From the NCBI RefSeq assembly GCF_001368915.1, contig NZ_CSTE01000004.1, forward strand, positions 1 through 64,000: DNA of 64,000 nt, read 5' to 3'. Numbering within the stretch: position 1 is the stretch's first letter; each line of letters begins with the position of its first letter. The position numbers and the translations under genes are program-made. This document shows positions 29,966 through 48,737 of this stretch, one piece after another. The notes below the pieces were generated by a model. It saw nothing but the letters and a program-made list of their open reading frames with translations, was not told the DNA's origin and did not search any database. Source of the DNA: Haloferax massiliensis. Its GTDB lineage: Archaea > Halobacteriota > Halobacteria > Halobacteriales > Haloferacaceae.

Positions 29966-31207
29966 TCACGAGGGCAGGCTTCCTGTTTCGATGACGTGAC
30001 TTGCAGACACAGACTCAAACTGAGCCGTGTCCGTAGCGGTCACAGTCTCCACAGGCGTATCTTCGGGCCATCCCAGCCCTAACTCAGAAAAGCCTCTCTG
30101 CAAGACGTTCATCGCCGCATTCGCATCCCTATCCGTCTCGAACCCACACGCCGGACAGGAGTGTTCCCTGACCCAGATAGGCTTTGCCGTCTCCACCCCG
30201 CACCGAGCGCACTCCTTCGTCGTGCCTCGTGCTTCGACCTGTTTGACGTGACAGCCGTACAGGTCGGCCTTGTATTCGAGGAGCGTGATGAACTGTCGCC
30301 ACGCCGCGTCCTGCTTGTTCCGGGCGTTCCCGTCGCCCTGAAGCATTCCAGCAACGTCAAGGTCTTCCACGAACACGGCGTCGTACTCTTTGACGAGCCA
30401 CGTTGTGAGTTTGTGCTGGTAGTCCAGTACCTTCCGACGAATGTGGCGTTTGACCGTGGCGACCTTCTGGCGTTGTTTCTCGTAGTTGTTCGACCCCTTC
30501 ACCTTCCGCGAGAGTTTGCGTTGCTCGCGGCGAAGACGCTCGTAGTCGTCTTCGAGGTCAAGCCAATCCACGGTCTTCCCGTCGGAGGTGTGGATGTAGT
30601 TCTGGATGCCGAGGTCTATCCCGACGCTGTTGCTCGTGTCAAGCGAGTCCACGTCGGGCTTCTCGGGCAAGTCGGCGTCTCCGGTTTCCAGTCCGAAAGA
30701 GACGAACCACTCGCCAGTCGTCTCCTTCTTGAACGTGGCCTCTTTGATAGTGGCGTGGTCGGGAACCGGGCGAGAGTACCGGATTTTCACCCACCCGATT
30801 TTGCTGAAGCGCACGTATGCGTACTTGTCGTGGCCCCTCTTTTCATCGAGGTCAAAACCAGACTGGTTGTACGTCACGCTCCGGTAATCGCTAGGTGCTT
30901 GCCGTTTGAGACAACCGACCTTGTACCCCTTCTCTTTCTTCTTGCGAAGATTCGAGAGGTTACGGTGGAAACGAGCGACGGTGGTCTGTGCGGCTTTCGA
31001 GTACAGTTCACCGAACACCGACCACTTGCGTTTCCATTCGGGGAGTTTGTTGTTCTGGTCGTACTCGCTCGGTTTGTCGTCCTCGGGACTGTTCTGGTAG
31101 TCCCATCGGACGTGGTTGTAGAGTTGACGATGAACGTCTAGATGGTGTTCCAGTCCTTCCGCTACCTCCTGCGTTGGGTAAGCGTGGTAGCGGTGACTGT
31201 ATTCCAT
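29966..31207 (-). CDS. tnpB: RNA-guided nuclease TnpB (IS605 OrfB)
   Basis: A 413-residue TnpB with the complete RuvC-like catalytic triad: D198 (VGIDLGIQNY), E281 (VFVEDLDV) and D361 (DRDANAAMN). The zinc ribbon is C333/C336 (CARC) and C351/C354 (CPAC). The N-terminal OrfB helix-turn-helix-like region (YHAYPTQEVAEGLEHHLDVHRQLYNHVRWDY) is intact. TnpB proteins are established as omegaRNA-guided DNA nucleases that favour retention of the element. The guide would be made from the 3' end of this gene and the sequence outside 29934. The intact reading frame suggests it is still active or recently inserted. Confidence 0.92.
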   Translation of the reverse strand: MEYSHRYHAYPTQEVAEGLEHHLDVHRQLYNHVRWDYQNSPEDDKPSEYDQNNKLPEWKRKWSVFGELYSKAAQTTVARFHRNLSNLRKKKEKGYKVGCLKRQAPSDYRSVTYNQSGFDLDEKRGHDKYAYVRFSKIGWVKIRYSRPVPDHATIKEATFKKETTGEWFVSFGLETGDADLPEKPDVDSLDTSNSVGIDLGIQNYIHTSDGKTVDWLDLEDDYERLRREQRKLSRKVKGSNNYEKQRQKVATVKRHIRRKVLDYQHKLTTWLVKEYDAVFVEDLDVAGMLQGDGNARNKQDAAWRQFITLLEYKADLYGCHVKQVEARGTTKECARCGVETAKPIWVREHSCPACGFETDRDANAAMNVLQRGFSELGLGWPEDTPVETVTATDTAQFESVSASHVIETGSLPS

Positions 31208-31340: not shown

Positions 31341-33170
31341 TCAGAAGTCGTCAGGCCGGCAATCGAGGAGCCGGTCGCCGTTCGCGGTCTCGACCACGAC
31401 ACCGTCTGCAGTTCGTTCGAGCGTCGGCCCCCGTTCCCACGGTGCGCTCCCGTCGGGGCTAGCCATGACCGCCGAAGCGAACCAGTGTTCCCCCGGTTCG
31501 TGCGTCGCTCGCAGCGTCGGGACGACCGTGCGAGCGTAGTTCAGGTTCGTGTTAGGGTCGTCGACCACGACGGCCGGCGTGCGGTCGCCGAACCCGTCGG
31601 AGATACCGCTAACACCGTTCGGGTATCTGGCGAGCGCCGTTCCATTCTGACTGTCGTGCGTAACGTTGGCCCCGGTGTCGTCACCGGTTTTGTCCAGGGC
31701 GAACCCACCTTCTTCGCTGTGTACGACCCGGTCCGTTTGCAGTCGGTGGACGCGCACGTGCCACGGAAGGTCGGGCGCGAGCCACGTCTCGACGCTGACG
31801 TCCTCCCACGGGTTCCATCGGGCGGCGAGGGTCGACCCGTCTACGCGCGTCTGCGTGAACGACGCGGGAATCTTGAACTGGTCGCCGTCGAGGCTGAGCG
31901 CGAGGGCGCTGTCGTGTCCCGCCTGTCCCGGTCCGGGCGTCCGACCAGCAACGGAGAAGGCGAACTGCGTCGAGTACGCGAATTTCGTGTATTTCTCTCG
32001 TCCGTGATGGCTGTCCCGAGTGAGCGAAAGCGCAAAGAGGTGGTCGTCGTCGCGGCACACGACTTTCTCGGCTTCGGGCTGTGCCGTCGTCTCCGGGAGG
32101 TCCGGGAGTGGCTCCTCGTCGGCCTGCCAGAATGGGTGGGTTGGATGTAGCGCCAGCGGGAGGAACGCCTTCATCGCCCAGTACGGCGAATTCGGCGAGT
32201 TGTAGGTTTCGGACACTTTCAGCGACGGGTATCGGTATCCGACCGACAGCAACCCGCCGTCGGTGAATATCGGTTGGTCGAGCCACCAGCGGATGTTCCG
32301 GGCCCAGAGTCCGCGGACGACGCCCCACGAGAGCGATTCCAAGCCGGCAAACGCCAGCGTCCCCCAGAACGACGCCTGCGCGAAGCGATAGGTCAGGCTC
32401 CGGCCGTACGGAAGCGCTCGCCCGGTCTCGTCGAACCAGTGGATGTGAGCAGTCGCGAACTTCTCGGCCCGCGCCCGAAAGCGGTCCGCCCGCTCGGGGT
32501 CGTCCTCGCCAGCAACGGCGGCGTAGAGGAGTCCGTACACGTGCATCGCCCACGGGACGTAGTAATCGACGGGGTTGTGTTCGTCGTCGGGGCCGTCCGT
32601 GTACCACCCGTCGCCGCGATAGAACGTTTCGAGTCGGTCGAGCGCGGACTGGGTCTGTTCCCAGTCGTGGCGCGCCCCGACCGACCGAAGCCCCACGTTC
32701 ACCATCACGCGGAAGAACAGCCAGTTACAGTCATGGAGTTCCGCGTCGTTGATCCGGTTCAACCAACTGACCAGTCGGTTCCGTTCCGGCTCCGAAAGCG
32801 GTTCCCAGAGGTGTTCCGGTGTGAGCGCGAGGCCGACGCCGATAGCGGCCATCTCGACGAGTTTCTGTGAGTGGTCGTCTACGTCTCCCCAGTACTCCTC
32901 GTGAGACGGGTCCGTCCCGTTGGTCAGCCCGGTCCGGAAAAACGACCAATAGTCGACGTCACTGTGAACGCCTAACGGCACGACACCCCACAGCGGGCGG
33001 GCAAATCCTTCAAGTTCGGCTGCGACGGCTGGAAAGTGAGCGCCGGTCGCCGTGGGCCTCACTCGCGCGTTACCGGGACTGGCGTGCGTGAGCAACGGTT
33101 CGACGAGTTGGGACACCGCTCGTTCGAAATCCCGTCGTGTCTGGAGCGGGTTACCTGTCGTTGGATTCAT
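31341..33170 (-). CDS. DUF2264-domain protein, possible glycoside hydrolase
   Basis: A 609-residue protein matching the DUF2264 family pattern: LTHASPGNARVRPTATGAHFPAVAAELEGFARPLWGVVPL at the N-terminus, then helix-rich repeats with WLNRINDAELHDCNWLFFRVMVNVGLR and GRSLTYRFAQASFWG, suggesting an (alpha/alpha) toroid, and a C-terminal beta-sandwich region (YSTQFAFSVAG onward). No signal peptide, so cytoplasmic. DUF2264 proteins are commonly found in polysaccharide-utilisation clusters, and I believe some have been assigned to a beta-glucuronidase-type GH family, though I cannot verify this here. It neighbours a GH88 glucuronyl hydrolase on the same strand, which fits processing of uronic-acid-containing oligosaccharides. 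It starts 90 bp after the GH88 stop. Confidence 0.75.
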   Translation of the reverse strand: MNPTTGNPLQTRRDFERAVSQLVEPLLTHASPGNARVRPTATGAHFPAVAAELEGFARPLWGVVPLGVHSDVDYWSFFRTGLTNGTDPSHEEYWGDVDDHSQKLVEMAAIGVGLALTPEHLWEPLSEPERNRLVSWLNRINDAELHDCNWLFFRVMVNVGLRSVGARHDWEQTQSALDRLETFYRGDGWYTDGPDDEHNPVDYYVPWAMHVYGLLYAAVAGEDDPERADRFRARAEKFATAHIHWFDETGRALPYGRSLTYRFAQASFWGTLAFAGLESLSWGVVRGLWARNIRWWLDQPIFTDGGLLSVGYRYPSLKVSETYNSPNSPYWAMKAFLPLALHPTHPFWQADEEPLPDLPETTAQPEAEKVVCRDDDHLFALSLTRDSHHGREKYTKFAYSTQFAFSVAGRTPGPGQAGHDSALALSLDGDQFKIPASFTQTRVDGSTLAARWNPWEDVSVETWLAPDLPWHVRVHRLQTDRVVHSEEGGFALDKTGDDTGANVTHDSQNGTALARYPNGVSGISDGFGDRTPAVVVDDPNTNLNYARTVVPTLRATHEPGEHWFASAVMASPDGSAPWERGPTLERTADGVVVETANGDRLLDCRPDDF

Positions 33171-33260
33171 CTAGTTTGTGCGTTGATCGCATGCATCAAT
33201 AGCGTTTCCCTGCCCCGACCGGGAGTTTACGTCGTCGTGAAACGGCGGGTGGCGGGCCGC

Positions 33261-34469
33261 TCACCAGTAGCGGGACCACTGTTGGGTGGCTCGAACGAGC
33301 CCTTCGACGTAGAAGTAGTCTCCCCAGATGCAACACTCGTTGTAGTCTCCCTCGGTCGGGTCGTAAGCGCCGTCAGTCAGCAATCCGTTCGACCGGTTTC
33401 CGTCGGTCGTGTAATTCTCCGTGAGACTGCGGAGGATTGCGAGTGACGCGTTCTCGTAGCGCCGGGCGCGAGTATCCGCGAGCGGGAGCCGCGTGGCGAG
33501 TTCGTCGAGTCCACAGGCGGCGATCGCCGCGGCGGAGGTGTCACGGTAGTTCTGCTCGTCGGGCGCATCGAAGTCCCAGCGCGGGACGTGGTCCGCTTCG
33601 ACGTTCGAGAGGTAGTAGTTCGCCAGCTTTGCGGACAGTTGCGCGTACGCGGCCTCATCGGTGTACTCCGCCGCGAGAGCGTACCCGTATATGGCCCACG
33701 TCTGGCCGCGTGACCAACAGGAGCCGGCGTCGTAGCCCTGCGCCGTTTCGCCGCCGAGCGGCGACCCGCTTTCGACGTCGCATTTGAACGTGTGGAACGT
33801 CGAGCCGTCGTCGCGAACGACGTGCTGTGCGTTCGTCCGGGCGTGCGTCTCGGCGACGGAGGCGTACGTGGGGTCACCCGTCTCCTCGCTCGCCCAGAAC
33901 AAAAGCGGGAGGTTCATCATCGAGTCGACGATCATTCGACCGCGCTCCCACGAGTCCTCGGGTTCCTCGGGGTCGCCCCACGCCTGAATGAGTCCGGGCG
34001 AGTCCCAAAAGCGGGCGACGAGATGGTCGGCGGCGGTGAGGGCCGCCGACCGATACCGTTCGAGGTCCGTCAACCGATAGCCGGCGATGGCAGAGAGCGT
34101 ATAGAGGAACCCGAGGTCGTGGGTCTTCACGTCACCGGCCGTCAACCTCCGCTCGAACGTCGCCAATTGGGCTTCGGCGGCGTCTCGAAACGTGCGGTCG
34201 CCCGTCGCCTCGTACGCGAGCCAACAGAGTCCCGTCCAGAACGAAGTCGTCCAGCCGTCCATGTTGTCGGAGGGGCTATAAACGAGATTCTCACTCGACG
34301 GCCCGGGAAATCGGTCGTAGAACTCGTCGAGATTCTCATCGATGCGGTCGATTGCGACCGAGAGCGCCCGTTCGATATCGCTCTGTGCGACGTCCGGTCT
34401 CGTCGCGTATCGGTCCGGCAGACCGGTGTCGTCGATACGTCGCAGTAACGCGGCTGGCTTTCGTGCCAT
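33261..34469 (-). CDS. Unsaturated glucuronyl hydrolase (GH88)
   Basis: A 402-residue (alpha/alpha)6-barrel enzyme that hydrates the 4,5-unsaturated uronic acid left by polysaccharide lyases and so releases it. Family features are visible: NMDGWTTSFWTGLCWLAYEATGD near residues 68-90, KTHDLGFLYTLSA with the first catalytic-type Asp, GRMIVDSMMNLPLLFWASEETGD with the second, and ETAQGYDAGSCWSRGQTWAIYGYALA. No signal peptide, so it works on imported oligosaccharides in the cytoplasm. It heads a two-gene unit with the DUF2264 gene and diverges from an IclR regulator. Its presence implies that a lyase product is the natural substrate of this locus. Confidence 0.88.
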   Translation of the reverse strand: MARKPAALLRRIDDTGLPDRYATRPDVAQSDIERALSVAIDRIDENLDEFYDRFPGPSSENLVYSPSDNMDGWTTSFWTGLCWLAYEATGDRTFRDAAEAQLATFERRLTAGDVKTHDLGFLYTLSAIAGYRLTDLERYRSAALTAADHLVARFWDSPGLIQAWGDPEEPEDSWERGRMIVDSMMNLPLLFWASEETGDPTYASVAETHARTNAQHVVRDDGSTFHTFKCDVESGSPLGGETAQGYDAGSCWSRGQTWAIYGYALAAEYTDEAAYAQLSAKLANYYLSNVEADHVPRWDFDAPDEQNYRDTSAAAIAACGLDELATRLPLADTRARRYENASLAILRSLTENYTTDGNRSNGLLTDGAYDPTEGDYNECCIWGDYFYVEGLVRATQQWSRYW

Positions 34470-34585
34470 GTGGCTACAGTTCCCTTGGCAGACGCTATAA
34501 AGCCATCGTCAAGCCACCGGCCCGTCTCTCACTCCGACTCGGAACGACGCTCTCAGGGGTTCACGCCGCGTAATTCAGAACGAGG

Positions 34586-34602
34586 TTCAGTATCGGTGAA
34601 TC
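34586..34602. promoter_or_regulatory. Dyad upstream of IclR gene 2 (candidate operator)
   Basis: GTTCAGTATCGGTGAAT, 54-70 bp upstream of the IclR start at 34656 and between it and the divergent GH88 gene. It keeps the GTTC...GAAY arms, TAT core and 17-bp span of the other dyads, with three differences in the inner positions. Confidence 0.4.
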
Positions 34603-34655
34603 ATATCCATTCATTGATGACATACATTTACAATGCTCCCCTTGTTAGAGAGAGT

Positions 34656-35423
34656 ATGTCAGACAGAGAACAGTCGAATCACGTGAAGACCGCGCGGACG
34701 ACGTTCCGGATACTCGAAGTGCTCAAAGAGAAGAACGAGGCGACCGTCACGGAGATGACCCAGGAGTTCGACCTGTCGAAGAGTAGCTTACACAACTACC
34801 TGAGCACGCTCGAACAGGACGGATACATCGTGAAAGAGGGCAACACCTATCGTGTCGGTCTGAAGTTGCTCGATTTGGGCGGCCACGCGCGGCACAGACG
34901 GCGACTCTACGAAATCGCAAAAGACGAAGTGACCGCGCTAGCCGAGGAGACGGGAGAACTGACGAACCTCCTCGTGGAAGAACACGGGAAGGGAATCTAC
35001 CTCCACAGAGCACACGGCGCCGACGCGGTTAAAACGGACTCGTACATCGGACAGGCGGTCTACCTCCACAACACCGGCCTCGGAAACGCGATATTGGCGC
35101 ACCTCCCCCGGGAGCGCGTGAACGAAATCCTCGATCGACACGGCATGCCAGCGTCCACGGAAAACACCATCACGGAGCGGTCGGAGCTGTTCGAGACCCT
35201 CGACAAGGTGGCCGAAGACGGCTACGCACTGGATGACGAAACCCGCGTCAAAGGCCTCCGATGCGTTGCGGTCCCGATAATCAACAATAACGACGAGGTC
35301 GAGGGAGCGATCAGCGTCTCGGGCCCGAAAAGTCGGTTTCAAGACGAACGGTTCCGAGAAACGCTCCCAGAGAAATTACAGAACGTCGCGAACATCATCG
35401 AACTCAACATTACGTACACGTAG
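34656..35423 (+). CDS. IclR-family transcriptional regulator (uronate locus)
   Basis: A 255-residue IclR regulator: winged helix at about residues 12-60 (TTFRILEVLKEKNEATVTEMTQEFDLSKSSLHNYLSTLEQDGYI) and effector domain to the end (YLHNTGLGNAILAHLPRERVNEILDRHG, LRCVAVPIINNNDEVEGAISVSGP). The ATG at 34656, preceded by GAGAGA, was chosen because the upstream 62 codons of the same frame are unlike protein. A TATA-like element (CATACATTTA) lies ~30 bp upstream. It diverges from the GH88/DUF2264 genes and precedes the BNR_4 gene, so it likely controls both sides. Confidence 0.9.
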   Translation: MSDREQSNHVKTARTTFRILEVLKEKNEATVTEMTQEFDLSKSSLHNYLSTLEQDGYIVKEGNTYRVGLKLLDLGGHARHRRRLYEIAKDEVTALAEETGELTNLLVEEHGKGIYLHRAHGADAVKTDSYIGQAVYLHNTGLGNAILAHLPRERVNEILDRHGMPASTENTITERSELFETLDKVAEDGYALDDETRVKGLRCVAVPIINNNDEVEGAISVSGPKSRFQDERFRETLPEKLQNVANIIELNITYT

Positions 35424-35768
35424 TCAAGATGGCCGAACAATCCTGAATGATTGCTGAAATATCTATCATTAATTCTGTGGTGATCTGCCAGATGACTGGG
35501 TATTTGATTATTCTGTGGTGTGTGAGATAATATATGAATGAAGTTCAGTATGAGTGTAGAGAGGGTTGATTTGGTTAGGTGGCGTGGTTTGCTGACGGGG
35601 ATAGCCGCTCCGGCGGGCGTGCTACGTGGCGAACCGCGACCTGAGCGGCGGATATCGCGTGCTCGAAGGCGAAAGCGGCCTCGACGGACACAATGTTTAA
35701 CCGATGGCCCACAAATTGTAATCCACTTCACAGGTGCGTTGTCATAACGCGAATGCACCGGAGTACCA
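35424..35768. other. AT-rich intergenic region upstream of the BNR_4 gene
   Basis: The first 120 bp are AT-rich (a good promoter or terminator region after the IclR gene). Closer to the BNR_4 gene, ACAATGTTTAACC and a later ACAAATTGT give an ACAAT...ATTGT inverted pair at about 35690-35719 that could be an operator. I see no gene. Confidence 0.4.
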
Positions 35769-37445
35769 ATGACGTTCGAGGACCAAAACGAGAAGCAGGC
35801 CGAGCAGAACGGAACGGAGAGTGCCGGGAAGATGTTCTCATTGAAGCGCGAGAGGCTCCTAAGCGGCGAGGCGTGGGCGTTCAACAACGCGCCGTGGGAC
35901 CAACGGAAAGTCGTTACTGTCGGAGACTACCAGTACGTACCGTATTGGAACGACGACGGCGTTCTCTCGCTCGCTCGCCGAGCGCTGCCAACTGACTCGG
36001 TTCAGTGCATCCAGTTCGACTGGAGGGTTCCAGACGAGGACTCGCACAGGAACACGGCACTCGGGACCGACAACGACGGTCGTCTCCATCTCGCGTACGA
36101 CCACCACGACGACCCGTTCCACTACCGATACTCGTCGTCTGGATTCCTGACAGACCCGCCTTCGAGCGTCTCCACCGGTGATTTCTCAGAGACTACTGAC
36201 ATGGGCCTGAGCGGTCCGGAGCGCCCAGTTACCTACCCTCGGTTTTTCAACGATCAGCGCGGAACGCTGTTCTGCGAGTACCGGATTGGCTCGTCCGGCG
36301 ACGGTGATTCGTACCTTCACGTCCACGACTCACCGTCGAACTCGTGGACGCGCATCGGAACGGTGTTTTCGAGTGCGGGGACGTACGAGCCGTGGAACGG
36401 TTCCGCGTCTCGGAACGCGTACCATCACGACTGGACCTTCGACGACACCGGTCGACTCCACGTCACCTGGACGTGGCGCGAGACGTGGGAGACGTGGCGC
36501 TCTAATCACGACATCCACTACGCCTACAGCGACGACGGTGGCTACACGTGGTGCAACAACGACGGTACCGTCATCGGTGACGTGAACGCGGACGACCCGA
36601 TTCGCGTGGACGACGAGAGCGTCGTCGTCGACGGTCCGGCGCGTTCGTGGCTGATAAATCAGGGGACGCAGGCGCTCGACTCGAACGACCAACCACACAT
36701 CTTCACGTCGCGCTCGACGGACTCGACGACCGACTTCGACGACGCTAACCGCCACTATATTCACTATTGGCGAACGACGGACGGGCAGTGGCACGAACAG
36801 TACATCGACGACACGAGCGTCGACCTCTCGACGGTCGGAATCGACCCAACGCGTGCGGGAGATATCTTGCTAGATCGCGGTGATTTGCTGTTCGACGACA
36901 ACGACGCGCTCCACGTGTACACCGTCGTCGACGGGCGACTCTACGCCGGGGTTGCGACAGCATCCTCGGGGTGGACCGACTGGACGCTCTACTGTCTCCA
37001 CGAGGGCCCGTTCTGTGGGATGGACGGTCGAAAACACGATACGTGTCGGTGGGAAAACGAGAGCGTCCTGTCGATACCACTCGAACGACCCCGCGAGAAC
37101 GGCACGGCGTTCGTACTGCAGGAGTACTCCATCGTGGGACCGAACGACCCGTCCGCACCCTCGCTGTCGGTGTCAAACGAGTCGTCGTCGAGTGTCGAAC
37201 TGTCGTGGACCGAGGCGCGAGGCGCGGAGAGTTACACACTCCATCGGCGGCCAGTCGACGGAGATTTCGAGGTCGTCGCGGACGAAATCGCGGAAAACTC
37301 GTTTTACACCCAGTACACCGACACCCGCGTGAGTTCGGGCAGTGACTACGAGTACAGACTCACGGCCGTCAACAGCGTCGGCGAGACCGATTCGACCATC
37401 GTTCGGGTCACGACCGATGGTTCGTCGAACGCGGCGATGGAATAG
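35769..37445 (+). CDS. BNR_4 beta-propeller protein, candidate polysaccharide lyase (ulvan-lyase-like), with FN3 tail
   Basis: A 558-residue protein. Residues ~25-450 look like a BNR_4 seven-bladed propeller: WDQRKVVTVGDYQYVPYWNDDGVLSLARRAL, then HRNTALGTDNDGRLHLAYDHHDDPFHYRYS, VTYPRFF, AYHHDWTFDDTGRLHVTWTWRET, IHYAYSDDGGYTW and HDTCRWENESVLSIP. This fold and its His-rich blade edges are shared with ulvan lyases of PL24/PL25, which cut next to glucuronic acid and leave an unsaturated end. Residues ~457-550 are a fibronectin III domain. No Tat or Sec signal is visible, which is odd for a polymer-degrading enzyme. A GH88 gene nearby supports lyase chemistry. It could instead be a non-catalytic BNR protein; substrate is inference. 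Confidence 0.65.
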   Translation: MTFEDQNEKQAEQNGTESAGKMFSLKRERLLSGEAWAFNNAPWDQRKVVTVGDYQYVPYWNDDGVLSLARRALPTDSVQCIQFDWRVPDEDSHRNTALGTDNDGRLHLAYDHHDDPFHYRYSSSGFLTDPPSSVSTGDFSETTDMGLSGPERPVTYPRFFNDQRGTLFCEYRIGSSGDGDSYLHVHDSPSNSWTRIGTVFSSAGTYEPWNGSASRNAYHHDWTFDDTGRLHVTWTWRETWETWRSNHDIHYAYSDDGGYTWCNNDGTVIGDVNADDPIRVDDESVVVDGPARSWLINQGTQALDSNDQPHIFTSRSTDSTTDFDDANRHYIHYWRTTDGQWHEQYIDDTSVDLSTVGIDPTRAGDILLDRGDLLFDDNDALHVYTVVDGRLYAGVATASSGWTDWTLYCLHEGPFCGMDGRKHDTCRWENESVLSIPLERPRENGTAFVLQEYSIVGPNDPSAPSLSVSNESSSSVELSWTEARGAESYTLHRRPVDGDFEVVADEIAENSFYTQYTDTRVSSGSDYEYRLTAVNSVGETDSTIVRVTTDGSSNAAME

Positions 37446-38070: not shown

Positions 38071-38838
38071 TCAGGGCGACTCGCGGAGCGCCTTCCGAAT
38101 CTGGTTGGCGGAGCTGATGATGAGTCCGGGCACGTCCTGCTGGAAGCGCTTTCCGGACATGCTCTCCGAGGGGCTCAACACGAATATCGACCCGACCCGA
38201 CCGCTCTCGGGGTCGACGACGCCAGCGGCGAGACCGCGGAGGTCGGTCTGCCACTCCTCGCGGTCCGACAGGAGGCCGCGCGTCTCCGCGGTGTCGAGTT
38301 CCTCACGGAGGGCGGCCGCGCTCGTAATCGTCTGGTCCGTGTGGCGGTCGAGAGACGCCGCATCGACGGCATCGCGGCGGTCGTCCGCCGGGAGTTGTGC
38401 GAGCATCGCCTTCCCCGGGGCCGTGCAGTAGAGCGGGACCGTCCGACCTTCGGCCACGGGCGGGGTCTCGACGTTCTGACCGGTCCGCTCGTAGATGCAG
38501 ACGCCCCGTCCGCGCTCGAATACGGTGAGGCCGGCGGCGAGTCCCGAAATCCGCGCGAGTCGGTCGACCTCCCGCTTTCCGACCCGGTAGAAGGGGACCC
38601 CGGACCGGACCGAACAGCCGAGTTCGAAAAACCGAAGACTGCGTCGATACCGCTGGTCCTCCTTGACGACGAACCCCAACTGTCGGAGCGTTTCGAGGTG
38701 GTTGTGCACCGAACTCTTCGAGAGGCCGACCTCCGTCTCGACCTCGGTCAGGTTGGCGTCGCCGAGTTTCGAGAGGGCGTCCAGCACGCGCCCGCTCGTC
38801 GTCGTCGCCTTCACCGGTGGGTCTCCGCGCTCGTTCAT
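38071..38838 (-). CDS. IclR-family transcriptional regulator (aldolase/glp cluster)
   Basis: A 255-residue IclR regulator with winged helix at about residues 7-55 (ATTTSGRVLDALSKLGDANLTEVETEVGLSKSSVHNHLETLRQLGFV) and effector domain (LYCTAPGKAMLAQLPADDRRDAVDAASLDRHTDQTI, LRGLAAGVVDPESGRVGSIFVLSP). The ATG at 38836-38838 (MNERGDPPVKAT) was chosen because the domain begins just after it. A TATA-like ACTTTTATGG lies ~25-33 bp upstream and a dyad is immediately above that. It lies downstream of the dehydratase paralogue on the same strand. The matching dyad above the kinase gene at 51589 suggests that both ends of the cluster are its targets. Confidence 0.9.
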   Translation of the reverse strand: MNERGDPPVKATTTSGRVLDALSKLGDANLTEVETEVGLSKSSVHNHLETLRQLGFVVKEDQRYRRSLRFFELGCSVRSGVPFYRVGKREVDRLARISGLAAGLTVFERGRGVCIYERTGQNVETPPVAEGRTVPLYCTAPGKAMLAQLPADDRRDAVDAASLDRHTDQTITSAAALREELDTAETRGLLSDREEWQTDLRGLAAGVVDPESGRVGSIFVLSPSESMSGKRFQQDVPGLIISSANQIRKALRESP

Positions 38839-38871
38839 GGCCCAACGAAGAACGGAGTTTACCATAAAAGT

Positions 38872-38888
38872 ATTCACTATCGCCGAAT
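38872..38888. promoter_or_regulatory. Dyad abutting the TATA element of IclR gene 3
   Basis: ATTCACTATCGCCGAAT, arms ATTC/GAAT, 34-50 bp upstream of the IclR start. It matches the dyad at 51700 in 15 of 17 positions, and the next six bases (CGGCCG) are also identical. Confidence 0.55.
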
Positions 38889-38904: not shown

Positions 38905-40056
38905 TCACCACTCGGCGACGCTCCCGTCCTCGTGGTACCATATCGGGCTCTGCCAGTCGACGCGGGACTGCGCGTGCTCGCGGACGGCCTCCTCGTCTAT
39001 CTCCACACCGAGGCCGGGGGCGTCGGGAGCGGAGACGAAGCCGTCGTCGAAGCCGAAGACGGCGGGGTCGTCGAGGTACGCGAGGAGGTCGTTCCCGTCG
39101 GCGCGGTGGATTTCGAGGTTCTGCGCCTGCGCGATGGCGTTCGGGAGCACCATGTCGAGGTGGAGACAGGAGGCGAACGAAATCGGCCCCAGCGGGCAGT
39201 GAAGCGAGACGAGCACGTCTTTGGACTCGGCCGCCGTGGCTATCTTGCGGACCTCAGAGATGCCCCCGGCGTGAGACGGGGAGGGCTGAAGCACGTCGAT
39301 GGCGTCGAGTTCCAGCGTTCGCTCGAAGTCCCAGCGGGAGTACAGGCGCTCGCCCGTCGCGAGGGGGACCTTGGTCCGGTTCTCGATGCGCGGCAGGGAG
39401 CGCGCGTGTTCGGGGAGGACGGGCTCCTCGTAGAACATCGGATCGAGCGGGTCGAGTTCGTCGGCGACCCATTTCGCCATCCCGGTCGTGATGCGCCCGC
39501 GGAAGTCGACGACGATGTCCACGTCGGCTCCGACCTCGGACCGGACGGCTTCGAGGCGCTCGCGGACCCGAGCCACCGCCGCCGGGGAGTCGATGCGGTC
39601 TAGCTGCGAGACGGCGGAGAGCTTCAGGCAGTCGTAGCCGCGGTCGACCTCCTCGGCCGCGGCGCGCGCGATGGCCTCGGGCGTCTCGCCGCCGACCCAC
39701 TGGTAGACCGGAATCCGGTCGCGGGCCTTCCCCCCGAGGAGGTCGTAGACGGGCGCGCCGTAGTGTTTCCCTTTGATGTCCCACAGCGCCTGGTCGATAC
39801 CGCCGATGGCGCTCATGAGAACCGGGCCGCCCCGGAAGTGCCGCCCGCGGTACATCGCCTGCCAGTGGCGCTCGATTTCGAGCGGGTCGGTCCCGAGGAG
39901 GTAGTTGTCGATCATCTCCTCGACGGCCGCCTTCGTCGTCTTCGCGTAGCCCTCCACGATTGGCTCCCCCCACCCGCAGACGCCCGCGTCGGTTTCGAGC
40001 TTGAGGAAGACCCACCGGGGCGGGACTTCGAACAGTTCGTACCCGGTTATTTCCAT
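38905..40056 (-). CDS. Galactonate-dehydratase paralogue with altered acid/base residues (enolase superfamily)
   Basis: A 383-residue relative of the dehydratase at 11489-12643, similar from MEITGYELFEVPPRWVFLKLET to the HEDGSVAEW end. The metal ligands are kept: D184, E210 (or E211) and E236. The catalytic partners are not. The His that protonates the leaving hydroxyl in GalD is R186 (VVDFRGRI). The Asp that pairs with the base His is S259 (QPSPSHAGG for QPDLSHAGG). The base His itself remains (H286, SLHCPLGP). So it probably binds a sugar acid and metal but has a different substrate or reaction. The ATG at 40054-40056 was chosen because the paralogue starts there. It diverges from the fused aldolase gene, suggesting a shared pathway. 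Confidence 0.82.
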   Translation of the reverse strand: MEITGYELFEVPPRWVFLKLETDAGVCGWGEPIVEGYAKTTKAAVEEMIDNYLLGTDPLEIERHWQAMYRGRHFRGGPVLMSAIGGIDQALWDIKGKHYGAPVYDLLGGKARDRIPVYQWVGGETPEAIARAAAEEVDRGYDCLKLSAVSQLDRIDSPAAVARVRERLEAVRSEVGADVDIVVDFRGRITTGMAKWVADELDPLDPMFYEEPVLPEHARSLPRIENRTKVPLATGERLYSRWDFERTLELDAIDVLQPSPSHAGGISEVRKIATAAESKDVLVSLHCPLGPISFASCLHLDMVLPNAIAQAQNLEIHRADGNDLLAYLDDPAVFGFDDGFVSAPDAPGLGVEIDEEAVREHAQSRVDWQSPIWYHEDGSVAEW

Positions 40057-40201: not shown

Positions 40202-41545
40202 ATGACGGTGAACGAACCTCAGCGTCTAGTCAGTACGCTCGGCAAGCGCATGCTGGCAGACGGCCTCACGAAGGGAACCGGCGGAAACGTCAGCGTCAGA
40301 GCGGACGACGGAACCGTCGCCATCAGTCCCTCGGGGATGCCCTACGACGAAATCGAACCCGAGGACGTACCGATTCTCGACATCGACGGCGAACGGGTCG
40401 CCGGCGACCGCAAGCCATCGAGCGAGTTCCGCATGCACACGGACGTGCTCCGCCAGCGCGAGGACGTGGGCGCGGTGGTCCACAACCACTCCCCGTACGC
40501 CAGCACCTTCGCCAGTATCGACGAACCAGTCGGCCCCTCGCACTACCTCATCGCGTTCATCGGCGACGAGATTCCCGTGGCGAGTTACGAGACCTACGGG
40601 ACCGCCGAACTCGCCGACGTGGCGGTGGAGACGTTGGGCGACGACTACAACGCCTGTCTCCTCGAAAACCACGGCGTCCTCGCCACCGGCGCGACCGCCG
40701 AGGAGGCGTACGAGGTGGCGCTCATGGTCGAGTACTGCGCCCGCATCCACTATCAGGCGCGCAGCGTCGGCGAGCCCTCGCTGCTCCCCGACGAGGAAAT
40801 CGACACCCTCCTCGACCGCTTCGCCGACTACGGGCAGACGCAGTCGGCCGACGAGGACGGGTCGGAACCGACCGGCGACGACCGCGTCCCCGCCGACCGA
40901 CTGTCAGACCTCGCGTCGCACCGCTCGGCGGTCAGCGAGTTCGGCCGCGAGATGCTCCATCAGGGCCTGACCGAGGGGACCGGCGGCAACATCAGCGCGC
41001 AGGCCGACGACCTCGTCGCCATCAGTCCCTCGGGGATGCCCTACGACGAAATCGAACCCGAGGACGTGCCCGTCGTCACGCTGGACGGCGAGTGGGTCGC
41101 CGGCGACCGCAAGCCGTCGAGCGAGGTCCGCATGCACGCCGGCATCCTCCGCGAGCGCGACGACGCGGGCGCGGTGGTCCACAACCACTCCCCGTACGCC
41201 AGCACCTTCGCGAGCCTCGGCGAGCCGATTCCGGCCTCGCACTACCTCATCGCCTTTGCCGGCGACGAGATACCCGTCGCGGGCTACGAGACCTACGGGA
41301 CGCAGGGACTGGCCGACCTCGCGCTGGAGGCGCTGGGCGACGACTACAACGCCTGTCTCCTCGAAAACCACGGCGTCGTCGCCGTCGGCGACTCCGTCGC
41401 GGAGGCGTACGAGGTGGCGCTCATGGTCGAGTACTGCGCCCGCATCCACTACCAGGCGCTCAACATCGGCGAGCCCTCGCTGCTCCCTGGCGAGGAAATC
41501 GACACCCTCCTCGACCGCTTCGCCGACTACGGACAGGACCACTAA
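40202..41545 (+). CDS. Class II (fuculose-phosphate-type) aldolase, two complete copies fused in tandem
   Basis: A 447-residue protein made of two full L-fuculose-1-phosphate-aldolase/AraD-type domains: about residues 1-218 and 240-447, joined by an acidic linker ([17 protein letters not shown]). Both contain the catalytic Glu (RKPSSE), two zinc His residues ([10 protein letters not shown]) and the third zinc His (LLENHGV). Each domain ends with the same [14 protein letters not shown]. Single-domain relatives are ~215 residues. The enzyme would cleave a ketose phosphate to dihydroxyacetone phosphate and an aldehyde. It starts 145 bp from the divergent dehydratase paralogue and precedes the GlpA-like gene by 211 bp. 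The intergenic region has an AT-rich AGAATTATCT element ~30 bp upstream of the start. Confidence 0.85.
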
Positions 41546-41756
41546 ACGGGCCGCTCTCGGCGCAACCGTCGAGTCGGCGCTCCGGGGAGTCGGTGCTCCG
41601 GCGAGTCGCAGGTCACAGCCCGGAGCGCCGCCGAATCGAGACCCCGTGTCGCGGAGGGCACGCGAGCGATGCCGTCGCCGCGTCCGACCCGCGACCGCGG
41701 AAAATTCGGTGAGCACAACAATTATTACGTCGCTTCCCATGGTCTTTCATAATTAT

Positions 41757-43448
41757 ATGAGCCACTCAGTCGTCGTTATCGGCGGTGGAGCCACCGGTAC
41801 GGGGACCGCCCGCGACCTCGCGATGCGCGGCTTCGACGTGACGCTCGTGGAGCGGGGGAACCTGACCGAGGGGACGACCGGGCGCACCCACGGCCACCTC
41901 CACAGCGGGGCCCGCTACGTGGTGTCGGACAAAGAGAGCGCCGTCGACTGCATGCGGGAAAACCGGGTGCTCCACCGCATCGCTGGCCACTGTATCGAGG
42001 ACACCGGCGGGCTGTTCGTCCAGTTAGAGGGCGACTCCGACGACTACTTCGAACGGAAGTTGGCCGGGTGTGCGGAGTGCGACATCCCGACCGAGGTCAT
42101 CTCGGGCGAGGAGGCGCGGCGGCGCGAACCCTACCTCACCGACGCGGTCGAGCGCGCCATCTGGGTCCCCGACGGCGCGGTCGACCCGTTCCGCCTCTGC
42201 GTGGCGAACGCCGCGAGCGCCGTCGAGCACGGCGCGCGCATCGAGACGCACGCGGAGGTCGTCGACCTCGTCGTCGAGGGGGGGCGGGTGGCCGGCGTCG
42301 AAGTCGAGCGGCGAGGGCCGAACCACCGCGGCGAGGGCGCGGCGGGCGACACCGAGACGTTCGAGGCGGACTACGTCGTCAGCGCGACCGGCGCGTGGGC
42401 GGGACAGTTGGCGGCGATGGCCGGCGTCGACCTCGAAATGGCGATTTCGAAGGGCGCGATGGTCGTCACCAACGTCCGGCAGTTGGACACGGTCATCAAC
42501 CGCTGTCTCCCGAAGGGCGAGGGCGACACCATCATCCCCCACGAAACGACGGTCCTGCTCGGCGCAAACGACGACCCGGTGGACGACCCCGACGACTACC
42601 CCGAAGAGCAGTGGGAAGTGGACATGATGATAGACGTCGCCTCCGAGATGGTTCCGGTGGTCGCCGACGCCCGCATGATACGCGCCTACTGGGGCGTCAG
42701 ACCGCTGTACGACCCGAACCCGGAGTCGACGACCGACCCCGGCGACGTGACGCGGAACTACTTCGTGCTCGACCACGCCGAGCGCGACGGAGTCGGGGGG
42801 TTCGCCTCCGTCGTCGGCGGCAAGCTCACCACCTACCGAGAGATGGCGGAGTCCGTCGGCGACCACGTCTGCGAGGTACTGGGCGTCGAAGAACCGTGCC
42901 GGACGGACGAGGTCCCGCTCCCCGGGAGCGCCGACCCCTCGGCGCTCGACGAGTACATGGACGAGTTCGACCTGCGCTCGCCCATCGCCCGCAGGAGCGG
43001 TCAGCGACTCGGCGACCGGGCCCCCGAGGTGCTCGACATCGACGGGCCGAACCCGACGCTCTGCGAGTGCGAGGCCGTCACCCGCGCCGAGGTCAGAGAC
43101 GCCATCGACCAGGTCGGCGCGGACCTCAACGGGGTCCGCCTCCGGACCCGCGCGTCGATGGGGAACTGTCAGGGCGGCTTCTGTAGCCATCGGCTGGGAG
43201 CCGAACTCTATCCCGACCACGGAGCCGAGGCCGCCCGCGACGCCGTCGACGAACTGTATCAGGAGCGCTGGAAGGGCCAGCGTCACGCCCTCTGGGGCGA
43301 ACAGCTCTCGCAGGCCATGCTCAACGCCATGCTCCACGCGACGACGATGAATCACGACGCGAATCACGTCGTCGGCGACGAGAACATCGAGTACCGCGCC
43401 TTCGACGGGGGGCGGACCGCGGTTCCGGAGGGCAGCCATGGCGATTGA
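41757..43448 (+). CDS. glpA: GlpA-type FAD-dependent glycerol/polyol-3-phosphate dehydrogenase, subunit A
   Basis: A 563-residue flavoprotein with an N-terminal dinucleotide-binding motif ([30 protein letters not shown]), [13 protein letters not shown], and a C-terminal BFD-like [2Fe-2S] region ([11 protein letters not shown]...MGNCQGGFC). This is the GlpA layout of anaerobic glycerol-3-phosphate dehydrogenases. The ATG at 41757 follows an AT-rich stretch. It overlaps glpB by 11 bp. Haloferax has a main glpABC set next to glycerol kinase. The kinase and aldolase near this one suggest it may oxidise another polyol phosphate. Confidence 0.9.
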
Positions 43449-44796
43449 GAGCGACGTGCTCGTCGTCGGCGGCGGACTCGCCGGGATGGCGAGCGCGGTC
43501 GCGGCCGCCCGCGAGGGCGCGACGGTCAGACTGGTCTCCCACAAGAAGACGACGCTCCGACAGGCGTCGGGGCTGGTCGACGCCCTCGGCTACGTGCCGT
43601 CCCGGGACTCGGCGGTCGAGGGGACGGACTACGTCTCCCAAGAGCGCGCGGACTTCCGAGAAGTGCGGTCGAACCGGGACGCCTACCGGGGACCGCTCGT
43701 CAGACCGACCGACGGATTCGACGACCTCCCGGCGGACCACCCCTACTCGCTCGTCGGCGAGTCCGCCCTGCGAGACGGCCTCGCGCTGTTCGACGACCTC
43801 ACGGGCGACGCGTATCTCGGCGGCCACACGGAGCGAAACGCGCTCGTGCCGACGTTCGGCGGCGCGGTGAAGCCGACAGCGCGATACCCGCGCGCCGCGG
43901 CCGCGGGGCTGGCGAGCGACGACCGCCCGATGCTCGTCGTCGGTTTCCGGTCGTTCACGGACTTCGACGCCCGCATGCTCGCGGACTCGCTTGAGGCCGC
44001 GGGCGTTCCGTTTCCCGTCGCCGGCGTCGAAGTCGAGTTCGCCGAGGAGTTCCGGGCTGACGCGCCGGTGACGCGAATTGCGAAGGCGCTGGACCACGAC
44101 GAGCGCCTCGACGGGACTCCGGCGAGGCGGGCGCTCGCGGACGCCGTGAAGCCGTACGTCGACCGCGCGGAGCGCGTGGGCTTTCCGGCCGTGCTCGGCG
44201 ACGACCGCGCCGACGCGGTTCGGGCGGCGCTCTCGGAGCGACTCGGCGTCGACGTGTTCGAGATTCCGATGGGACCGCCGAGCCTCCCCGGCCTCCGGCT
44301 GGAGGACCGGCTCTACGACGCGCTCGACGCCGAGGGCGTCCTGTACGAGACCGGAAACCCCGTCGTCGGCTACGAGACCGACGGCGACTCGGGGCACGTC
44401 GACGCGGTGCTCGTCGACCGGAAGGGCCGAGAGGTACCGTACGGGGCCGACTCGTTCGTCCTCGCGACCGGCGGCCTCGTCGGCAAGGGCCTCGACTCCG
44501 ACCGGACGGCGGTCAGAGAGCCCGTGTTCGACTGTCGCGTCCCCCAGCCGTCGGACCGCTACGACTGGTTCGTCGACGACGCGTTCGGGGCGCATCCCTA
44601 CGCCCGTTTCGGCGTCGAACCGGACGCCGAGATGCGGCCGCTCGCCGCCGACGGAACGCCGGAGTTCGGGAACCTCTACGCCGCCGGCGCGGTGGTCGGC
44701 GGCGCGGACGCCGCCCGGGAGAAGTCCGCCGCCGGCGTCTCTCTCGCCACGGGCGTCGTCGCGGGACGCAACGCCGCGAAGAGACTCGGCGACTGA
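43438..44796 (+). CDS. glpB: GlpB-type subunit of glycerol/polyol-3-phosphate dehydrogenase
   Basis: A 452-residue flavoprotein subunit with an N-terminal FAD motif ([40 protein letters not shown]) and a C-terminal one ([34 protein letters not shown]). Both are characteristic of GlpB, which links GlpA to the membrane subunit GlpC. The start overlaps the glpA end by 11 bp, so translation is coupled. Separated from glpC by 100 bp. Confidence 0.9.
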
Positions 44797-44896: not shown

Positions 44897-46333
44897 ATGA
44901 CAGCGACCGACGACGGAGACCGAACGACCGAACCGAACCGGACGAACAGCCGCGACCAGGCGACCGAGAGAGACAGAACGGCCGAGGAGGGGAAACAGCG
45001 ACGGACCGACGGGGAACGACGAGTCACCGACGGCGGCGTCGCGGCCGCGTCAGCCCCCGAGAGTGCCGAGTACGACACCGACCCGGAACTGACCGACGTG
45101 TTCGAGGAGGGTGACCTCGACCTCCGCGCGGGCGCGGACGACTGCTACAAATGCACCGCCTGCGACACGTCCTGCCCGGTCGCCGAGGTGGACGAGGAGT
45201 TCCCCGGACCGAAGTTCCAAGGGCCGGAGCAGTGGCGACTCAAGCGCAAAGGGGACGCCGACATCGACGACTCCGTCATGTCGTGTTCGAACTGCATGCG
45301 CTGTGACTCGGCGTGCCCGTCGAGCGTCCCGCTCAGCCAGATGCACAACGAGGCCCGCGGCGAGTACGTGAGCGAGCAGATGAGCGCGCTCTCGCGGGAG
45401 TACGTCCGCAACCGTATCCTCGCCAACTACCGGACCTCGGCGGCGGTCGCGTCGGCGGTTCCGCGACTCGCGAACTTCGCCATGAACTTCGGTCCGGCGC
45501 GCTGGGCGATGGAGAAACTGCTGGGCGTCACCGCCGAACGCGACTTCCCAGAGTTCGCGTCGCAGACGTTCCGGGAGTGGTGGCGCGAACGCGGCGGGGC
45601 GCGGGTGGAGAACCCCGAAAAGCGGGTCGCCTACTTCCACGGCTGTTACGCCAACTACAACACGCCGGAGGTGGCGAAGGCGATGGTCCGCGTCTTCGAG
45701 CAGTTCGGTTACGAGGTCCTCGTCCCGCCGCAGGGGTGCTCGGGGACGCCGATGTTCGCGAACGGCATGCTCGACGACGCCCGGCGACACGCCGAGACGA
45801 ACGTCGAACACCTCGCGGCCGCGCTGGCGGACGGCGCGGACGTCATCGCGTCGTGTACCTCCTGTTCGCTGTCGCTTCGGCAGGAGTACCCCGAACTGTT
45901 CGACATCGACGGTATCGAGGACGTCTCGGACAACGCGTTCGAGGCGCTGGAGTACCTCCGCATCCACGAGGACCTGCGGGGTGCGCTGGCCGACGCCGAA
46001 CTCGACGGGGAGTCGTTCGGCTACCACGGACCGTGCCACGCTCGCAATCAGGGGCTCCACCGGCAGGTCGTCGAACTGTTCCGCGACGTCGACGGCGTCG
46101 AAATCGAGGACGTGGGCGACTCCTGTTCCGGCATCTCCGGCACCTACGGCTGGAAGGAAGAGAAGTACGACAAGTCGATGAAAATCGGCGAGGAGATGTT
46201 CGACCACATGCGTCACGCCGAGGGCGACGCGGGCATCACCGAGTGTCCCACCTGCGCGATGCAGATGGAACACGGCACTGGCTACGAGATTCGCCACCCG
46301 CTCGAACTGCTCGAAGACGCGCTCGTCGAGTGA
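44897..46333 (+). CDS. glpC: GlpC-type Fe-S subunit of glycerol/polyol-3-phosphate dehydrogenase
   Basis: A 478-residue Fe-S protein passing electrons from GlpAB to quinone. Two ferredoxin-type groups are visible (CYKCTACDTSCPV and CSNCMRCDSACPS) followed by two CCG domains (FHGCYANYNTPEVAKAM...PPQGCSGTPMF and YHGPCHARNQGLHRQ...CSGISGTYGWKEEKY). The first ~65 residues are a disordered, very polar extension (Asp/Glu/Arg/Thr) that bacterial GlpC lacks. No transmembrane helix is evident; GlpC is expected to associate peripherally. Confidence 0.9.
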   Translation: MTATDDGDRTTEPNRTNSRDQATERDRTAEEGKQRRTDGERRVTDGGVAAASAPESAEYDTDPELTDVFEEGDLDLRAGADDCYKCTACDTSCPVAEVDEEFPGPKFQGPEQWRLKRKGDADIDDSVMSCSNCMRCDSACPSSVPLSQMHNEARGEYVSEQMSALSREYVRNRILANYRTSAAVASAVPRLANFAMNFGPARWAMEKLLGVTAERDFPEFASQTFREWWRERGGARVENPEKRVAYFHGCYANYNTPEVAKAMVRVFEQFGYEVLVPPQGCSGTPMFANGMLDDARRHAETNVEHLAAALADGADVIASCTSCSLSLRQEYPELFDIDGIEDVSDNAFEALEYLRIHEDLRGALADAELDGESFGYHGPCHARNQGLHRQVVELFRDVDGVEIEDVGDSCSGISGTYGWKEEKYDKSMKIGEEMFDHMRHAEGDAGITECPTCAMQMEHGTGYEIRHPLELLEDALVE

Positions 46334-46399
46334 CGGCTTGGGAAAATCCGACGAAAAATGACCGGGATTTATGTGTCCGCGTGCGGGGGTTACGCACGC

Positions 46400-46843
46400 A
46401 TGGTGGAAGCAATCCCGCTAGACGTAGCAACGCAGTTGATCGAAGCGGCCGAGGGCCGGGCCGACGAAATCGAGAACCCGATGGTCGTCACGGTCGCCAA
46501 CAGCGAGGGGAACCTCATCGCGCAGCACCGGATGGACGGCGCGTGGCTCGCCTCCGTCAGTATCTCGCGCAACAAGGCGTACACGTCCGCCGCGCTCGAC
46601 ATGCCGACGCACGAACTCGCCGAGGCGTCCGAGCCGGGGAACTCGCTGTACGGGCTGGACACGCGGGACGACGGTCGGATGGTCGTCTTCGGCGGCGGCT
46701 ACCCGCTCGAACGCGACGGCGAAGTCGTCGGCGCGATCGGCGTCTCCGGCGGCGCCGTCTCGCAGGACCGCGACGTCGCCGAGGCCGGCGTCGAGCGCTG
46801 GACCGAACTCGTCGAGGCGGACGCGGTTCCGAGCGACGACTGA
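46400..46843 (+). CDS. GlcG/HbpS-type (DUF336) small protein
   Basis: A 147-residue protein of the GlcG/HbpS family, known for heme or cob(II)alamin binding and for accompanying glycolate, propanediol and glycerol genes. Pattern: VVTVANSEGNLIAQHRMDGAWLASVSISRNKAYTSAAL, PGNSLYGLDTRDDGRMVVFGGGYPL and VGAIGVSGGAVSQDRDVAEAG. The ATG at 46400 (MVEAIPLDVATQLIEAAE) was preferred over one 14 codons upstream because the family begins there. It follows glpC by 66 bp, likely in the same transcript. Confidence 0.82.
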   Translation: MVEAIPLDVATQLIEAAEGRADEIENPMVVTVANSEGNLIAQHRMDGAWLASVSISRNKAYTSAALDMPTHELAEASEPGNSLYGLDTRDDGRMVVFGGGYPLERDGEVVGAIGVSGGAVSQDRDVAEAGVERWTELVEADAVPSDD

Positions 46844-47092: not shown

Positions 47093-47806
47093 ATGGTATC
47101 CGTGACCGTATGGAACGAGTACGTACAGGAGCGAACGGACGAGGAAGTCGCCGCGGTCTACCCCGACGGCATCCACGCGGTGCTCGCCGAGGCCCTCGAA
47201 TCGCGGGGTCACGACGTGCGTGTCGCGACGTTCGACGAACCTGACCACGGCCTCACCGATGCGGTGCTCGACGACACCGACGCGTTGGTCTGGTGGGGCC
47301 ACAAGGCCCACCAGGCGGTCGAAGACGCGGTCGTCGAGCGGGTCTGCGAGCACGTCTACGACGGCATGGGGTTCGTCCCGCTGCACTCCGCGCACTTCTC
47401 GAAGGCGTTCAAGCGACTGATGGGCACGCCCTGTTCGCTCCGGTACCGCGAGTCCGGCGAGCGAGAGCGGGTGTGGGTGGTCGACCCCGGCCATCCCATC
47501 GCCGACGGCCTCGACGAGTCCTTTGTCGTCCCGGAGACGGAGATGTACGGCGAACCGTTCGCGGTCCCCGAGCCCGACCGTCTGGTGTTCGCGTCGTGGT
47601 TCGAGGGCGGCGAGGTGTTCCGCTCCGGCTGTTGCTACCGGCGCGGTAGCGGTCGGATATTCTACTTCCGGCCCGGCCACGAGACCTACCCGGTGTACGA
47701 GGTTCCCGTCGTGCGAGAGGTGCTCGACAACGCGGTCAGATGGGCAGCCGCGGGCGTTGACGAGGCGGTTCCGACGGTGAACCGCGCGGTCGACCCGGTC
47801 GAGTGA
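47093..47806 (+). CDS. ThuA-like trehalose-utilisation family protein
   Basis: A 237-residue class I glutamine-amidotransferase-like protein of the ThuA family. [72 protein letters not shown] and [16 protein letters not shown] match the group. No nucleophile Cys is evident at the amidotransferase elbow (PLHSAHF), as usual for ThuA. Such proteins accompany sugar-oxidation gene clusters. Its exact reaction here is unknown. The preceding 249 bp carry a possible promoter but no gene. Confidence 0.85.
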
Positions 47807-47933: not shown

Positions 47934-48737
47934 ATGGAAAAGCGCTCGCGCGAAGCAGTCGCGGTAGAGGCCGCAGAGACCGGGGCGGAGTACGCCTTCG
48001 AACACTTCAGAACGGACTTCGATATCGAACAGAAGGGCGACAAGACCGACCTCGTGACCGAAATCGACCGCGAGACCCAGCGTCGGGTCATCTCGACGAT
48101 TCGGGAGCGGTTCCCGGACGACGCCGTCGTCGGCGAGGAGGAAGACGAGCGAAAGACCGTGCCGGAGTCGGGCTACGCGTGGGTCATCGACCCCATCGAC
48201 GGGACGCAGAACTTCACCCGCGGGACGAACGCGTGGGTGACGAGCGTCGCCATCGTCGAGGACATGGAACCGCTGGCCGCCGTCAACGTCGCGCCGGCGA
48301 CGGGCGACACGTACGTCGCGACCGGCGGGGAAATCGAACGCAACGGTCGCCCGATAACCGTGAACGACGAACGCGATATCGAGGCGTTCATCGTCGCCTC
48401 GACGCTCCGGTTCGGACCCGAGGACCGCCCCGCGGTCGAGACGCTCGCCGGCGAGATATTCGGCCGGTTCGGCGAACTCCGCCGAATCGGAACCACGCAG
48501 TTGACGCTCTCGCGGGTCGCCGACGGCTCGATAGACGCGGTCGTCGGCCTCGACGAGCACCCCAACGCGTGGGACACGGTCGCCGGCGTACACCACGTTC
48601 GGCGGGCTGGCGGTGTCGTGACGGACATTCGCGGAAACGAGTGGTTGCCGGGACGCCCCGGACTGGTCGCGTCGAACGGTCGGGCCCACGAAGAGGTGCT
48701 CGAAACAGCGCAGGCGGCGTTCGAAGCGATTCACTGA
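47934..48737 (+). CDS. Inositol monophosphatase-family phosphatase
   Basis: A 267-residue metal-dependent phosphatase. Family motifs: TDLVTEIDRETQRRVI, VVGEEEDE, WVIDPIDGTQNFTRG (metal site 1) and EHPNAWDTVAGVHHVRRAGGVVTD (metal site 2). In archaea such enzymes act as inositol-1-phosphatases or fructose-1,6-bisphosphatases. In this cluster it might remove phosphate from a sugar or polyol phosphate. It starts 127 bp after the ThuA-like gene, probably in the same direction of transcription. Confidence 0.85.
   Translation: MEKRSREAVAVEAAETGAEYAFEHFRTDFDIEQKGDKTDLVTEIDRETQRRVISTIRERFPDDAVVGEEEDERKTVPESGYAWVIDPIDGTQNFTRGTNAWVTSVAIVEDMEPLAAVNVAPATGDTYVATGGEIERNGRPITVNDERDIEAFIVASTLRFGPEDRPAVETLAGEIFGRFGELRRIGTTQLTLSRVADGSIDAVVGLDEHPNAWDTVAGVHHVRRAGGVVTDIRGNEWLPGRPGLVASNGRAHEEVLETAQAAFEAIH

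Follow-up and report, generated by a model that had tools for sequence, protein, structure and literature searches.

Arginine in place of the acid histidine in a haloarchaeal group of galactonate dehydratase relatives encoded beside kinase and aldolase genes

The gene at 38905-40056 of the window (the 64,000-nucleotide stretch of Haloferax massiliensis DNA analyzed here) encodes an enolase-superfamily protein that we tentatively assign, with slightly less than even confidence, to a separate subfamily of haloarchaea that descends from D-galactonate dehydratase (GalD). It would remain an enzyme, with an anionic acid-sugar mechanism, but would have ceased to be a galactonate dehydratase. The automatic label "galactonate dehydratase" (dgoD) is probably wrong for this protein, which probably acts on another acid sugar, a more anionic one, that feeds a route through kinase and aldolase. 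Proteins of this group with arginine at position 186 are referred to as R-type. Two genes of the window are compared throughout:

38905-40056, minus strand: R-type GalD-derived enolase-superfamily protein (R72, H73, D184, R186, E210, E236, S259, H286, A311)
11489-12643, minus strand: intact GalD paralogue (active-site residues D-H-E-E-D-H-E; H185, D258, and E310 kept)

The 383-amino-acid R-type product is 48 to 49% identical to the GalD references from Escherichia coli (about 49% over the full length) and Ralstonia pickettii (3rr1). The alignment to the deposited R. pickettii GalD shows the same residues as that to the E. coli sequence. GalD positions D183, E209, E235, and H285 align with D184, E210, E236, and H286, and the metal ligands and base histidine are accordingly all present, as a prior sequence-only reading had stated. 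That reading had also claimed that both acid/base partners are lost, and the alignments to both references bear out the two replacements: Arg186 stands at the place of the leaving-group acid His185 of GalD, and Ser259 at that of the dyad Asp258, leaving the His-Asp dyad incomplete with H286 kept. In addition to these, Glu310 of GalD is replaced by Ala311, the loop at 71 to 73 is rebuilt from Gly-Phe-Tyr to Arg-His-Phe, and N146 of GalD is a serine, within a stretch (146 to 150) that is likewise replaced. By a count from the alignment, the net charge over the compared positions is about +3 to +4 above that of GalD. With R72, H73, and R186 gained and D258 and E310 lost, the pocket would carry more positive charge, as would suit a substrate bearing an additional negative charge, e.g., a phosphorylated acid sugar. 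The Ser259 codon (TCC) lies two base changes from the Asp codon GAC, and the serine is present in four further genomes, which rules out a single sequencing error.

The GalD fold (capping domain and (beta/alpha)7beta barrel) is retained in the predicted structure. The AlphaFold2 model has a mean pLDDT of 85.8 and a pTM of 0.86, with residues 71 to 75 below a pLDDT of 50, and its best PDB matches in Foldseek were the GalD structures 3rra and 3rr1 (TM 0.86 to 0.89). Both the fold and the three-carboxylate metal-ligand set of the mandelate racemase subgroup of the enolase superfamily are found in the R-type protein, and GalD/DgoD shares with it the length and base His as well. A racemase or epimerase working by 1,1-proton transfer was considered unlikely, as the position of the second-face Lys of mandelate racemase is Asn in GalD and Ser, Ala, Thr, or Glu in the R-type clade, going by the alignment.

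The intact version that the sequence-only reading had placed in the same window is indeed encoded there, at 11489-12643, and is 59% identical to the R-type protein. Its neighbors are a GFO/IDH dehydrogenase, a KDPGal-type aldolase, a PfkB kinase, and beta-galactosidases, which is the standard DeLey-Doudoroff context; this galactonate context has been described for haloarchaea (PMC3102087). Haloarchaeal DeLey-Doudoroff GalDs are the nearest relatives of the R-type protein (59 to 63% identical). Elsewhere in the window, 17940-22961 encodes a GH2 beta-galactosidase of 1673 residues with laminin-G and ricin-type lectin domains.

Relatives were sought in two overlapping genome samples, 392 from the order and 391 from the class. 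Close relatives occurred in 14 of the 391 class genomes, this genome included, and in 7 of 86 genera; a GTDB contig scan added, among the matches listed, a Haloferacaceae metagenome-assembled genome (MAG), Halobellus rarus, and a third MAG. The clade set examined comprised 17 proteins, namely 13 with Arg186 (R-type) and four from Halapricum with Ser186, and was compared with 45 GalDs, including 36 haloarchaeal GalDs in the tree. With active-site columns removed, the 17 sequences formed a single clade (bootstrap/SH-aLRT, 100/98) beside the haloarchaeal GalDs. The Halapricum sequences, which have Gln72, Tyr73, and Gly311 and keep Asp259, branch among the R-type sequences, and Arg186 is therefore probably ancestral in the clade and Ser186 secondary; deep branching within the clade is weakly supported.

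H185, D258, and E310 are invariant in all 45 GalDs (and so in all 36 haloarchaeal ones of the tree), with Gly and Phe at the positions of R72 and H73. R72, H73, and R186, in turn, are invariant in all 13 R-type sequences, and position 311 is Ala or Ser in every one of them (Ala, Ser, or Gly in 17/17 clade members). The loss of both partners is not a single trait, however. Position 259 is Asp in seven R-type sequences, Ser in five, and Asn in one, and Ser259 (5/17 of the clade) is limited to this genome and a sister group of four genomes, in which E236 is replaced by Gln as well. Judged by these distributions, Arg186 is a trait of the whole R-type clade, and Ser259 a later, local change. D184 and E210 are invariant across the clade and H286 is kept in 16/17, while E236 is kept in 12/17, being Gln or Gly in 5 of the 13 R-type sequences. 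The orthologue of one MAG (L064:9139-10287) carries both E236G and H286Q in an intact 383-residue frame; by eye, the translations of the gene row in L064 resemble a 2-oxoacid dehydrogenase complex.

These counts bear on whether the gene is a redundant GalD copy undergoing local decay, as the intact GalD nearby might suggest. The sequence-only reading had named orthologues that keep His and Asp as the sign of such decay; His occurs in 0/17, and Asp is kept in 11/17. The same changes are found clade-wide across several genera, and the reading frames are open. Nei-Gojobori dN/dS between the Ser259 members was 0.06 to 0.22, with near-saturated synonymous sites in some comparisons with the H. massiliensis sequence, and was similar to the values for the adjoining aldolase (0.06 to 0.18) and kinase (0.04 to 0.10) genes. 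Purifying selection on the R-type gene is strong. Residue conservation and dN/dS together contradict local decay, which we rejected as scarcely credible.

Another possibility is that the automatic annotation is right and the protein remains a D-galactonate/D-gluconate dehydratase, slower but adequate. It scores 561 against the NCBIfam galactonate dehydratase equivalog NF010624 (cut-off, 311), and PGAP names the Halapricum copy dgoD. GalD, according to Wieczorek et al. in 1999, reportedly has its own general acid, which we take to be His185. However, His185 and Glu310, the two sequence features defining GalD chemistry, are gone in 17/17 clade members, the KDPGal aldolase present near 8/28 haloarchaeal GalD loci is near 0/16 clade loci, and an intact GalD is encoded in the same window. 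We therefore regard continued galactonate or gluconate dehydration as distinctly improbable.

In the mechanism that we favor, the substrate would be another acid sugar with more negative charge, either phosphorylated or dicarboxylic, bound by its carboxylate on Mg2+, and R72, H73, and R186 are predicted to contact it as an oxyanion pocket. H286 would abstract the proton at C2. Departure of the C3 group could then be syn, the proton being handed back by H286, or could yield an anion stabilized by R186, and the product would pass on into the kinase-aldolase route. The loss of the Asp partner of the base in this genome and the sister group would be a further step of change. As the Halapricum members have Q72, Y73, and S186 in the same gene neighborhood, the oxyanion pocket would not be needed by every member. 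E236Q in four genomes and E236G plus H286Q in MAG L064 are hard to reconcile with a single conserved metal-and-base mechanism.

The genes around the R-type gene in this genome are as follows:

38071-38877, minus strand: IclR-family regulator, downstream of the R-type gene (orthologue adjacent in 15/16 clade loci)
40202-41545, plus strand: fusion of two class II aldolase domains (FucA/Ru1P-aldolase-like), in head-to-head orientation to the R-type gene
41739-43448 (start approximate), plus strand: GlpA, anaerobic glycerol-3-phosphate dehydrogenase subunit A (conserved in 11/16 loci)
43438-44796, plus strand: GlpB
44897-46333, plus strand: GlpC
46358-46843, plus strand: HbpS/GlcG-like protein (conserved in 7/16 loci)
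47093-47806, plus strand: ThuA-domain protein (conserved in the sister group)
47934-48737, plus strand: inositol-monophosphatase-family protein
48925-50004, minus strand: multi-pass membrane protein (conserved in three R-type loci), its gene overlapping that of the kinase
49997-51589, minus strand: FGGY-family kinase, XylB-like, below the equivalog cut-off

The sequence-only reading had suggested that pairing with a divergent aldolase gene implies a different deoxy-keto product, which the aldolase itself does not support. FucA/DrdA/Ru1P-aldolase-like enzymes split ketose phosphates into dihydroxyacetone phosphate (DHAP) and an aldehyde. Both domains of the fused protein are of this class II type and keep the FucA Glu73 and Zn-His positions (relative to E. 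coli FucA), and a KDPGal-type pathway for this aldolase was rejected. Orthologues, single or fused, are present in 15/16 loci; the fused double form is also found in the sister group and Halobellus, and the single-domain form in other relatives. Among solved structures, a single-domain orthologue is closest to fuculose-phosphate aldolases, e.g., 6btd. Also in this FucA-like family (NF053831) is the ribulose-1-phosphate aldolase that serves the pentose bisphosphate pathway of haloarchaea (PMC9700705); per domain, the protein at 40202-41545 scores below the curated cut-off (about 208 to 236, versus 300 for single-domain orthologues). A 2-keto-3-deoxy product does not lead naturally to a FucA-type aldolase, and this counts against the explanation that we prefer.

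The kinase stands closer to kinases of stand-alone FGGY/2-hydroxyacid-dehydrogenase/aldolase modules in other haloarchaea (78 to 79% identical). The membrane protein at 48925-50004 matched no Pfam or NCBIfam family; it is a candidate transporter, and a link to sulfonates through a TauE/SafE exporter was dropped for want of such a match. On the other side of the R-type gene, 31341-37445 encodes, in a row, a DUF2264 protein, a GH88 hydrolase, an IclR regulator, and a BNR_4 protein with an fn3 domain, which look like genes for degrading a uronate-containing polysaccharide, possibly ulvan-like, and which do not recur near other clade members. A TnpB-type (IS605 OrfB) gene (29966-31207) lies between these and a sugar ABC transporter region.

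Gene context was counted in 16 clade loci and 78 GalD loci (28 haloarchaeal and 50 bacterial), loci within a genus not being independent. Of the 16 clade loci, 15 have both an FGGY kinase and a class II aldolase alongside, compared with 0/28 haloarchaeal and 0/50 bacterial GalD loci. At 10/16 clade loci, a D-2-hydroxyacid dehydrogenase lies nearby, and PdxA adjoins three R-type loci. The FGGY kinase beside one R-type gene (L139; G205:C1:1229317-1230837) has an in-frame TGA stop. Bacterial clusters of the same three families (FGGY kinase, 2-hydroxyacid dehydrogenase, and class II aldolase) were found in Streptomyces, Paracoccus, and Klebsiella. In that of Paracoccus denitrificans PD1222 (plasmid 1, 72008-88787; L183), the dehydrogenase, FucA-like aldolase, and FGGY kinase are accompanied by CoA transferases, a TPP enzyme, and a molybdopterin oxidoreductase; this cluster is possibly a bacterial form of the haloarchaeal kinase-dehydrogenase-aldolase route.

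The GalD and R-type contexts thus differ in that DeLey-Doudoroff kinase and KDPGal aldolase genes accompany the former and kinase and DHAP-type aldolase genes the latter. The R-type loci share the logic of kinase and class II aldolase, and where a dehydrogenase lies nearby (10/16 clade loci) that of the dehydrogenase too, with the L-threonate/D-erythronate routes (LtnD/DenD, OtnI, OtnK, and OtnC) and the PdxA2 D-threonate route. They differ from these in having an FGGY rather than a DUF1537 kinase, a dehydrogenase of the D-2-hydroxyacid family, and an aldolase nearer FucA, so that the likeness is one of resemblance only; no OtnI was seen in the R-type gene neighborhoods.

An isomerase, rather than a lyase, is a serious rival, as what the whole clade has lost served leaving-group departure (H185) and electrophilic support (E310 and N146), while D184, E210, and mostly the base are kept. 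H286 would act on an Mg2+-bound substrate to give a C2-C3 enediolate that is reprotonated at C3. Examples of such a conversion would be a 2-oxo-tetronate, or its 4-phosphate, to the 3-oxo form and tartronate semialdehyde to hydroxypyruvate, and the R-type protein would take the place of OtnI in a route to DHAP that runs through dehydrogenase, kinase, and class II aldolase. Such a product would suit the kinase and aldolase neighbors better than a 2-keto-3-deoxy product; the neighbors agree with the threonate/erythronate logic, and PdxA and a second FGGY kinase lie next to the Halobellus copies. However, we know of no enolase-superfamily member with such an isomerization. Four loci examined in other haloarchaea have the FGGY/dehydrogenase/aldolase core but lack the R-type gene, so the step is not obligatory; a close orthologue of the dehydrogenase was not found in the H. 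massiliensis genome; and FucA is the higher-scoring assignment for the aldolase, ahead of 3-oxo-tetronate-4-phosphate decarboxylase. Overall, isomerization is unlikely, if less so than the other alternatives. A bolder form, in which elimination was given up for an isomerase of an acid sugar (probably phosphorylated) with one His and an Arg-lined oxyanion pocket, in an archaeal kinase-aldolase route to DHAP, and descendants later lost the partner Asp, one metal-ligand carboxylate, and once the base, seems to us improbable.

Members lacking a metal-ligand carboxylate or the base are explained by neither the dehydratase nor the isomerase reading. They keep alive the idea of a pseudoenzyme or a regulatory or structural partner whose fold is kept for another purpose, as does the stepwise loss of superfamily residues within the clade (S259/N259, Q236/G236, and Q286). 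Yet most members keep all the metal ligands, the base, and the Asp, D184 and E210 are invariant, and R186, R72, and H73 are invariant rather than drifting, all of which leaves a noncatalytic role with little probability. We retain a distinct subfamily of enzymes as the preferred reading; the suggestion in the sequence-only reading of a new specificity or mechanism within the enolase superfamily is supported by the clade-wide change of His to Arg, purifying selection, the remodeled pocket, and a neighborhood unlike that of GalD.

A "missing functionally important residue" is a recognized type of misannotation (PMC2781113), and by that standard the dgoD label on the R-type protein would count as one: the annotation scores high despite the clade-wide absence of the residue defining GalD chemistry. 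Searches of the open literature found no account of this subfamily, of the gene combination, or of a GalD with such a change. Within one clade, His has given way to Arg, next Asp to Ser or Asn, and next Glu to Gln or Gly, with His to Gln besides, and this series forms a natural experiment that asks how much of the enolase-superfamily machinery can go while selection keeps the gene, with the intact GalD in the same genome as the control. The finding also points to an uncharacterized route, shared by haloarchaea and bacteria, through FGGY kinase, 2-hydroxyacid dehydrogenase, and class II aldolase.
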